From Halanaeroarchaeum sulfurireducens (GTDB lineage Archaea > Halobacteriota > Halobacteria > Halobacteriales > Halobacteriaceae), in the NCBI RefSeq assembly GCF_001011115.1, contig NZ_CP008874.1:1502440-1566439 (forward strand): a stretch of DNA of 64,000 bases, read 5' to 3'. The notes under the pieces were generated by a model, which was not told the DNA's origin, did not search any database, and was given only the letters and a program-made list of their open reading frames with translations. Shown in pieces: positions 16,568-59,852 of the stretch (positions are counted from its first letter, which is position 1; every line of letters begins with the position of its first letter). A program made the position numbers and the translations under genes.

Positions 16568-16907
16568 TATAAGTGATTGATCGACGTGGATAAATGAGAG
16601 TTCTCCAACCAGGGCGAAAGTGTGAGTTTGAGATGGGAAAAGACGAAAAGCCGCTATTGTCGTCTGTAACTCGTATCCCGTTTATGCCTGCCCTTCTTGC
16701 CGAAAGCGGATCTCAATAAGGGCCGGTTTGATGCTCGTTGAGCGTGAAATCTAAATCACCGCAACACAGCGCTGGGGAGGAGTCGATTAGGGATTCAAGT
16801 CCTCTGATTCTACCCCCGCCCCTGGCTAAATAACCGAATCCGTATGGGGATTGCCATCAGTATATGGAGGCCGCCGCATGGTGGTTTCACCCGAAGGAAG
16901 TGGTATA
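16568..16907. other. Intergenic remainder of the island
   Basis: About 340 bases with no supported gene. It is A+T-richer than the flanks and bounded on the right by the tRNA-Trp tail element. A T-arm-like stretch (GGGATTCAAGTCC, about 16790-16803) may be a further decayed tRNA fragment. Confidence 0.4.
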
Positions 16908-17047
16908 GGGCCGGAGGGATGTTGAACCACGCCCGAGAACCTGCGTTCCGCAGAACCTCGGTCTGGTTCAAATCCCACCCCCATTCTCTCGGCGGCGCCA
17001 ATCGCGAGCGACGGACCAGTCGCTCGCGATTTCAGTTAGTGAGAGAA
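16908..17047 (-). repeat. tRNA-Trp tail element (inverted and direct copies of the tRNA 3' end)
   Basis: Reading away from the tRNA on the minus strand: a spacer with a 13-bp hairpin (17000-17012 with 17019-17031); an inverted copy of the tRNA T-arm and trailer (plus-strand GGTTCAAATCCC at 16965, CCATTCTCTC at 16981-16990 pairing with GAGAGAATGG at 17041-17050); a short hairpin (CTGCG-ttc-CGCAG); then a direct copy of the 3' end (plus strand GGGCCGGAGGGAT, one extra G, TTGAACC, 16908-16928). The same layout follows tRNA-Glu and tRNA-Leu. Confidence 0.75.
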
Positions 17048-17224
17048 TGGGGCCGGAGGGATTTGAACCCCCGATCGACTGATATCTCCGGCGCGTCTCG
17101 GAACTCCAGAGGGTCGTCACCGCGGCCGATGATCAGTCCGCCGCTCGGTATACCAGTCTGGAATGTCGTCCCGGACGCTGTGACCTCTGGAGTCAGTCGC
17201 CCTGCCTGGCTGGGCCACAGCCCC
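17048..17224 (-). tRNA. tRNA-Trp (CCA) with a 103-nt intron
   Basis: Exon 1 is 17187-17224 and exon 2 is 17048-17083. Acceptor GGGGCTG pairs with CGGCCCC plus discriminator A; the D-stem is GCCC/GGGC, the anticodon stem ACTGA/TCAGT with loop CTCCAGA (anticodon CCA), and the T-arm is GGGGG-TTCAAAT-CCCTC. The intron (17084-17186) is 103 nt, inserted after position 37, matching the known haloarchaeal tRNA-Trp intron that acts as a box C/D guide. A CTGA box, a GTGACGA box and CTCTGGAG, complementary to the anticodon region, are visible. CCA is not encoded. Confidence 0.95.
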
Positions 17225-24704: not shown

Positions 24705-24816
24705 TGCTCCGTCAGGGATTTGAACCCGATGGCAAATCCTCACTTCGTTCGGATTCGCGTGGCTCAAATCCCTTCCCTGCGCGCTTCGCTCCCTCGAAAA
24801 AACTCGGTCGCTGTAG
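24705..24816 (-). repeat. tRNA-Glu tail element (inverted and direct copies of the tRNA 3' end)
   Basis: Reading away from tRNA-Glu on the minus strand: about 37 bases of spacer with a T-run, an inverted T-arm copy (plus-strand GGCTCAAATCCCTTCCCTG, 24761-24779), a hairpin (AAATCC...GGATT, 24732-24758), and a direct copy of the last 23 bases of the tRNA (24705-24727, identical to 24817-24839). Total 112 bp. The layout matches the elements after tRNA-Trp and tRNA-Leu. Confidence 0.8.
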
Positions 24817-24891
<75 letters not shown>

Positions 24892-59119: not shown

Positions 59120-59202
59120 GCGCGGGTAGCCAAGTGGTCAACGGCGCAGCGCTTAGGACGCTGTCCCGTAGGGGTCCGCAGGTTCGAATCCTGTCCCGCG
59201 CA
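59120..59202 (+). tRNA. tRNA-Leu (UAG)
   Basis: An 83-nt class II tRNA with long variable arm. Acceptor GCGCGGG pairs with CCCGCGC plus discriminator A; the anticodon stem-loop has loop CTTAGGA with anticodon TAG; the T-arm is CAGG-TTCGAAT-CCTG. No CCA encoded, no intron. Three partial copies of its 3' end follow. Confidence 0.95.
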
Positions 59203-59323
59203 GTGAGCGAGCGTAGCGAGCGAACGAGCAGGACAGATTCGAGCCCTGTCAGTCGCAGCCCGGGAAGCGACCGAAGGGAGCGACCCGGAACGTCTGATTC
59301 CGGTTCGAATCCTGTCCCGCGCA
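59203..59323 (+). repeat. tRNA-Leu tail element, copy 1 (121 bp)
   Basis: Spacer with GAGCGAGCGTAGCGAGCG, inverted T-arm copy CAGGACAGATTCGAGCC (59229-59245), a G+C-rich hairpin-forming middle and a direct copy of the tRNA-Leu 3' end (GGTTCGAATCC...CGCGCA, 59302-59323). The inverted and direct halves pair as GGACAGATTCGA/TCGAATCCTGTCC with one bulged C. Confidence 0.85.
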
Positions 59324-59444
59324 GTGAGCGAGCGTAGCGAGCGAACGAGCAGGACAGATTCGAGCCCTGTCAGTCGCAGCCCGGGAAGCGACCGAAGGGA
59401 GCGACCCGGAACGTCTGATTCCGGTTCGAATCCTGTCCCGCGCA
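59324..59444 (+). repeat. tRNA-Leu tail element, copy 2 (121 bp)
   Basis: A tandem copy of the preceding 121-bp unit with no difference noticed by eye, again ending with the tRNA-Leu 3' end at 59444. The near-identity implies recent duplication or gene conversion. Confidence 0.85.
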
Positions 59445-59608
59445 ATGCGAGGTCGAGCATCGCGAGACCTCGGGTAGCGAACGGGGAGGAACGACCCGTG
59501 AGCAGTGAACGGAGGGCAGCGAAGCTGCCCGGAGCGAACGAGCAGGACAGCGATTCGAATCAGGGAGGAGCTGTGCTCCGACCGTGGTTCGAATCGCTGT
59601 CCCGCGCA
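59445..59608 (+). repeat. tRNA-Leu tail element, copy 3 (164 bp, diverged)
   Basis: Same plan but different spacer with hairpins GAGGTC/GACCTC and GGGCAGC/GCTGCCC. The paired arms are a perfect 15-bp inverted repeat, GGACAGCGATTCGAA (59545-59559) and TTCGAATCGCTGTCC (59588-59602), around GGAG-ctgtg-CTCC. Relative to the tRNA, one G is inserted in the direct arm and the matching C is present in the inverted arm. It ends CCGCGCA. Confidence 0.85.
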
Positions 59609-59852
59609 CTTCCACTTTTTCCGAAGCGGGTTCGCCGATGGCTCACCCGCTTCGCAAAAACGTGGGGAAAAAGACAGCTATCGGTTGCGGATATCCGACA
59701 CGACCGCAGGTCGTGTCGGGCAGAAAGTCGATCCGGGCTCCATAAAAATAAATTGGCCAACAACTATAAAGTACTGATCGTTCCCGAACTATTAGAATAT
59801 TCACACGTGTAAAGCCGTCCGGCTCTCGACATTCAAGCGAGGTGACCAATTA
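59609..59852. terminator. Two hairpins between the tRNA-Leu array and the DUF4870 gene
   Basis: GAAGCGGGT/ACCCGCTTC (59623-59631, 59645-59653) followed by CGCAAAAA, and an 11-bp stem with a 3-base loop, CCGACACGACC-gca-GGTCGTGTCGG (59695-59719), followed by A/T-rich sequence. They may end the tRNA transcript. No gene seen here; the last 60 bases carry the downstream promoter. Confidence 0.5.

Follow-up and report, generated by a model that had tools for sequence, protein, structure and literature searches.

Hairpin tails that carry copies of the tRNA 3′ end behind tRNA genes of Halobacteria

Why should the end of a tRNA gene be repeated, once inverted and once directly, in the DNA that follows it? 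The question is raised by the three tRNA genes of the window, by which we mean the whole 64-kb stretch of DNA analysed here. A first-pass annotation had placed tails of this kind behind tRNA-Leu, tRNA-Glu and tRNA-Trp, and all three are present in the sequence where it put them. We consider how the tails are built, how widely they occur, on which strand they fold and how they might have arisen.

Three tailed tRNA genes and the edges of the unit

Rfam identifies three tRNAs in the window (Leu, Glu and Trp), of which ARAGORN misses the intron-containing Trp. Read 5′ to 3′ on the tRNA strand, the tRNA is followed by a hairpin (h1), an inverted copy of the T-arm (I), a second hairpin (h2) and a direct copy (D) of the last 22 nucleotides of the same tRNA, positions 52-73. 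The last nucleotide of D corresponds to N73, precisely where the mature tRNA ends.

The tRNA-Leu(UAG) gene (59120-59202, forward strand) carries three such units in tandem, with its last 22 nucleotides (59181-59202) the template of the copies. Unit 1 (59203-59323) starts with h1 and continues with I at 59231-59245, the h2 core at 59251-59295 and D at 59302-59323; in unit 2 (59324-59444) the corresponding segments are at 59352-59366, 59372-59416 and 59423-59444. Both D segments match the tRNA at 22/22 positions and comparison of the sequences reveals the two units as identical 121-mers. Unit 3 (59445-59608) has I at 59545-59561 and D at 59586-59608, the latter with one inserted base that is matched in I, and its h2 is of a different family (AGGGA..GACCGT) from that of units 1 and 2. 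Past the last D, on the same strand, a T-run and an inverted repeat (59616-59660) make 59609-59680 a possible terminator region, and a similar stretch comes after the C1:1856530 tRNA and its tail. The longer T-rich stretch after the last unit (59609-59740; CACTTTTTCC...GCAAAAACGTGGGGAAAAAGACAGC) recurs behind another tRNA-Leu tail, at C1:1856417-1856501. Several tRNAs are followed by a separate T-run module, TCCACCTTTTTACTCGTCGGG.

The other two genes lie on the reverse strand. tRNA-Glu(UUC), called by Rfam at 24817-24891, is followed by one unit (24705-24816) with h1 at 24787-24816, I at 24761-24774, h2 at 24727-24760 and D at 24705-24726 (22/22). The tRNA-Trp gene with its intron (17048-17224, Rfam only) is followed by a unit at 16906-17047, in which h1 occupies 16984-17047, I 16965-16978, h2 16929-16964 and D 16906-16928; this D differs from the tRNA end by one insertion and one mismatch. 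The I:D hairpins of the window fold with z-scores of -3.8 to -7.3 against dinucleotide shuffles (Leu unit 1, -3.97; Leu unit 3 at 59530-59608, -7.27; Glu, -3.78; Trp, -6.44).

Across 196 units the edges of the copy are sharp. Identity to the tRNA rises from 0.34 at position 51 to 0.88 at position 52 and 0.91-1.0 over positions 53-73, then falls to 0.57 at the first nucleotide beyond. An inverted copy specific to the tRNA is present in 150 of the 196, in keeping with the earlier argument that an attachment-site scar by itself leaves this element unexplained. The h1-I-h2 cassette is approximately 100 nucleotides and first units have a median length of 125 nucleotides, too short for a gene. T-runs stand behind 32 of 123 units and at the start of 56 of 196, compared with 5 of 162 in the background.

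The inverted copy follows its own tRNA, agreeing with it in 93% of cases at position 57 (54% with swapped tRNAs), 82% at position 62 (63%) and 71% at position 63 (41%), while the gain in the outer acceptor helix of I is slight, 3.7 bp against 3.2 bp when swapped. Where D and the tRNA differ, I agrees with D in 13 cases and with the tRNA in 8. For the tRNA at C1:231990, two congeneric species differ at one base, and in each of them I and D both reflect that species' own version.

A second type of tail copies the acceptor part only (approximately positions 62-73) around another module (GTAGTCCC...CGGGACTCCC). It is seen in genome G000 at C1:1889176, 326428, 1435119 and 264995 and at the orthologues in G152, and is sometimes nested in a D.

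Frequency, range and turnover

The observation is confirmed and is far larger than first reported. In the genome to which the window belongs (2.2 Mb), a D matching at least 17 of 22 positions lies within 500 nucleotides downstream of 27 of the 45 tRNA genes, and in the genome of a congener D lies downstream of 21 of 43. A set of 161 tRNAs, assembled from three sets including loci of named species, gives D downstream of 115, a number that is not a prevalence since 73 of these tRNAs were drawn from loci selected with a tail motif. The same search finds D upstream of three, in two when the end of another tRNA is substituted and in none of the Markov-shuffled flanks. The view that every copy fits its own tRNA is borne out by the swapped ends and by the behaviour of I at position 57.

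A covariance model built from 19 units matches 186 of the 196 genomes of the order, and 155 of the 158 good genomes, so that a layout noted behind three tRNAs of one genome recurs behind tRNAs order-wide. In that genome the model finds 36 sites at E < 1e-3, every one in a tRNA 3′ flank. In the rest of the phylum there are weak matches in 6 of approximately 240 genomes; the tails are limited to the tRNA genes of Halobacteria. A pattern search of named genomes returned 77 haloarchaeal matches, 72 of which sit 65-415 nucleotides behind a same-strand tRNA called by ARAGORN, and 63 of these 72 copies differ from the adjoining tRNA at no more than two of 22 positions. Of the other five, one has a tRNA by Rfam, two are at the edge of a locus and two are without a tRNA that could be found. 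Named genera with tails include Haloferax, Haloarcula, Halorubrum, Halobacterium and Natronomonas. Two haloarchaea of approximately 47% G+C (G060 and G010) have no tails in the 30 tRNAs examined, while two congeners of G060, G115 and G139, are tailed.

The plasmids and phages searched contain no tail match. In viral contigs, three tail motifs and the I-gap-D pattern gave 0, 16, 0 and 17 matches; we do not accept these as tails, as a pattern this short would yield about 16 by chance and the 17 are attributable to chance or to palindromes of another kind. Absence from the viral contigs, phages and plasmids searched weighs against the cassette reading preferred below, since a mobile element might be predicted to use such carriers. 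Separately, the GC-rich proviral contigs L329, L331, L333, L335, L337 and L338 have in common a palindrome CATGGATTTGAACC...GGTTCAAATCCATG beside GCCCCGCTAC, which resembles a doubled tRNA T-arm and acceptor and is distinct from the haloarchaeal tails.

The pattern turns over fast between species. Orthologous tRNAs of congeners differ in the number of units and in h2 family (tRNA-Cys 0 versus 1, tRNA-Gly 1 versus 7), and in another genus the number of units at one tRNA-Leu ranges from 0 to 2 among 13 species, with differing h2. In G152 (L098) the tRNA-Gly at C1:1877974-1878045 is followed by about seven near-identical units in tandem. Among units retained between congeners, identity is 98-99% for D, 91% for h2, 89% for I and 66% for h1, with 70% in the flank. 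The h2 hairpins fall into many unrelated families and yet near-identical modules occur behind unrelated tRNAs; one is identical at 45/45 positions behind the tRNA-Leu of the window and the tRNA at C1:458547. This recurrence implies that cassettes or modules move, while the sequences of D and I are brought back into agreement with the host tRNA. The proposal that tails arise locally and are not one mobile repeat is therefore upheld for the copies, which are tRNA-specific, but not for h2, which is common to different tRNAs, nor for whole units, which are gained and lost between relatives. That units jump together with a foreign D was considered and set aside, as copies nearly always fit their own tRNA and no clear foreign copy was seen. 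None of the genomes compared offered a clean empty site whose flanks match closely.

Folding of the sense strand

I pairs with D across positions 52-63. Those I:D pairs that are not Watson-Crick are almost all G-U on the sense strand; counted per genome and tRNA, sense wobble accounts for 81 cases (positions 53, 54 and 60) and A-C for three (positions 56, 58, 59 and 61). Such wobbles would read as A-C mismatches on the opposite strand, which identifies the sense strand as the folded one. The folding molecule is most naturally RNA, with sense single-stranded DNA the alternative. h1 is more stable in the sense than in the antisense orientation in 104 of 137 cases (p ~ 1e-9), while h2 has no strand bias. 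Covariation in the alignment is 0.397, compared with 0.169 when shuffled, and exceeds both controls; 9 of 17 paired positions have changed on both sides. The functional hairpin suggested in the first-pass annotation stands as far as a folded sense strand, on the evidence of wobble asymmetry, h1 strand bias, covariation and the match of I to its own tRNA, and no further. The roles suggested there for it, as a decoy or stop in tRNA 3′ processing, as a terminator or as a product of tRNA-primed copying, are conjectural. Inspection of the I:h2:D folds by eye revealed no bulge-helix-bulge splicing motif.

The acceptor half of D pairs poorly with I but is kept as well as the T-arm half, and so is not explained by folding alone. 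Possible reasons are that gene conversion acts directly between the tRNA and D, that the copies are young or that D pairs with the 5′ strand of the tRNA. Equilibrium folding favours the last of these in the model, although co-transcriptional folding would come first. We also considered that I might protect the tRNA from D, but equilibrium folding lends this no support, as the acceptor strand of D is predicted to pair with the tRNA 5′ strand with or without I.

Origin of the tails and comparison with known systems

Several questions bear on origin. How is a unit gained with such exact edges? How is it lost? Does the folded strand serve the cell? The reading that we prefer, to which we give slightly less than an even chance, is that the tails are tRNA-trailer cassettes found across Halobacteria, gained in an insertion-like manner with duplication of 22 bp, lost by recombination and folded as trailer RNA. 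A cassette of h1-I-h2 would enter directly behind a tRNA gene and leave D as an exact target duplication, by site-specific recombination or by ectopic gene conversion between tails via the universal T-loop sequence. Archaeal integrases prefer tRNA 3′ ends (PMC8371274) and a 22-nucleotide tRNA duplication flanks a Haloquadratum prophage (PMC3119063), making a tyrosine recombinase the obvious candidate for the inserting enzyme; ectopic gene conversion through the common T-loop sequence is an alternative for the spread of h2. A unit could be lost when the tRNA end recombines with D, which would leave the empty site exactly as it had been. The cassette shares a strand with the tRNA, and its probable transcript is a long trailer, in which h1 and h2 would form hairpins and I would base-pair with the T-arm part of D. 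The duplicated tRNA end would then be held in a duplex, a fold that may make the cassette tolerable. Several results speak against this reading: the failure to find copies on the viral contigs, phages and plasmids searched or a clean empty site, the good preservation of the acceptor half of D, and the predicted pairing of that half with the tRNA 5′ strand whether I is present or not.

The unit might instead be beneficial, acting in tRNA 3′ processing or freed as a small RNA, which is possible but which we regard as doubtful. Excision with a tRNA-like 3′ end is conceivable because D ends in the tRNA's own tRNase Z site. The exact stop at N73, the conservation of D, I and h2 between congeners while h1 and flanks drift, the sense-strand folding and the enrichment of T-runs are all supportive, as is the mapping in H. 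volcanii of two RNA 3′ ends downstream of tRNA-Pro, tailed or not (PMC7237163). However, about half of the tRNAs are without a unit, orthologous tRNAs differ in its presence, the two low-GC haloarchaea manage without tails in the tRNAs examined and h2 is drawn from many unrelated families. Mimicry of a T-arm is also discounted, since in the hairpin the T-loop sequence is taken up in base pairs.

Local copying would dispense with selection, as template switching during replication at the near-palindromic T-loop, followed by gene conversion and quasi-palindrome correction, could generate I and D from the adjacent gene. The fit of every I and D to its own tRNA, the identical tandem units, the arrays of up to seven and the extra base of Leu unit 3 matched in I are what it would give. 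It is nevertheless unlikely, given h2 modules nearly identical across different tRNAs and edges that are constant at 52-73 across almost all genomes of just one order. Correction of DNA would, moreover, erase G-T mismatches, at odds with the excess of sense wobble over A-C.

Ordinary attachment sites, that is scars or mini-elements of tyrosine integrases using the tRNA 3′ end, draw on the same integrase preference and Haloquadratum duplication as the cassettes, but appear less plausible still. The units are too short for genes, have a tRNA-matched inverted copy, fold as sense RNA and affect about half of all tRNAs. A useful contrast is offered by the outgroup genome G198 (C1:1519494, L304), where a plain duplication of the tRNA 3′ end overruns the end of the tRNA, lacks an inverted copy and looks like an ordinary attachment site. 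Reverse transcription, tRNA-primed on RNA or target-primed, would fit the 22-nucleotide edges as a source of tails but would require a widespread reverse transcriptase. Chance or composition, with GC-rich palindromic spacers meeting a universal T-loop sequence, can be dismissed almost entirely: in its favour, h1 and h2 consist of GAGCGAAC-like sequence of low complexity and tails are missing from the low-GC haloarchaea, but the shuffled, upstream and swapped controls refute it, as do full 22/22 copies that include the tRNA-specific acceptor part, and the covariation.

The cassettes matter for several reasons. They concern the ends and the processing of archaeal pre-tRNAs, a probable and so far unrecognised recombination activity that would target tRNA genes, and the concerted evolution of a tRNA with sequences outside it. 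For annotation, D copies can be mistaken for tRNA fragments or attachment sites. Experiments are feasible in genetically tractable haloarchaea. Above the Rfam gathering score only the tRNAs match in the window, with no meaningful match at E up to 5. A description of such tails was not found in the open-access literature searched, which is no proof that an earlier one does not exist elsewhere.

Integron cassettes stand in tandem, each ending in a folded site (attC) of which the structure rather than the sequence is kept. Tails resemble them in having tandem units with a folded end site and in keeping structure over sequence. They differ in that no gene fits the units of approximately 100 nucleotides, whereas integron cassettes carry genes, and in that tails are fixed to tRNA genes, with a stem sequence that tracks the host tRNA.

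Integrase attachment scars are similar in duplicating the tRNA 3′ end while leaving the tRNA intact, as in the 22-nucleotide Haloquadratum case (PMC3119063), and tails do have a direct downstream copy of that end. A scar would hold nothing else derived from the tRNA, whereas most tails have the inverted copy, and the distance between copies leaves no room for an integrase gene or cargo. Modular hairpins, tandem units and presence at about half of a genome's tRNAs set tails further apart. The MITEs and PATEs of Haloquadratum (PMC3119063) are likewise short, non-coding repeats with palindromes near their ends. MITEs occupy varied sites and have element-specific terminal repeats; tails are found order-wide at tRNA 3′ ends, where all the E < 1e-3 matches in the window's own genome fall, with a 22-nucleotide target copy and a tRNA-specific inverted partner, and their arms follow the tRNA. 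Nor were they carried by the viral contigs, phages or plasmids searched. In Methanopyrus a palindromic motif occurs approximately 10 bp downstream of tRNA genes (PMC5217627) and, like the tails, can form a hairpin and accompanies roughly half of the tRNA genes in the genome, but it is one fixed, short palindrome in one species, without copies of tRNA ends.

It is conceivable, though we would not rate it as probable, that a recombination activity specific to haloarchaea reads the universal T-loop and inserts gene-free, tRNA-templated cassettes behind almost any tRNA, duplicating positions 52-73. If true, such a system would be unlike integrons, CRISPR arrays or transposons.
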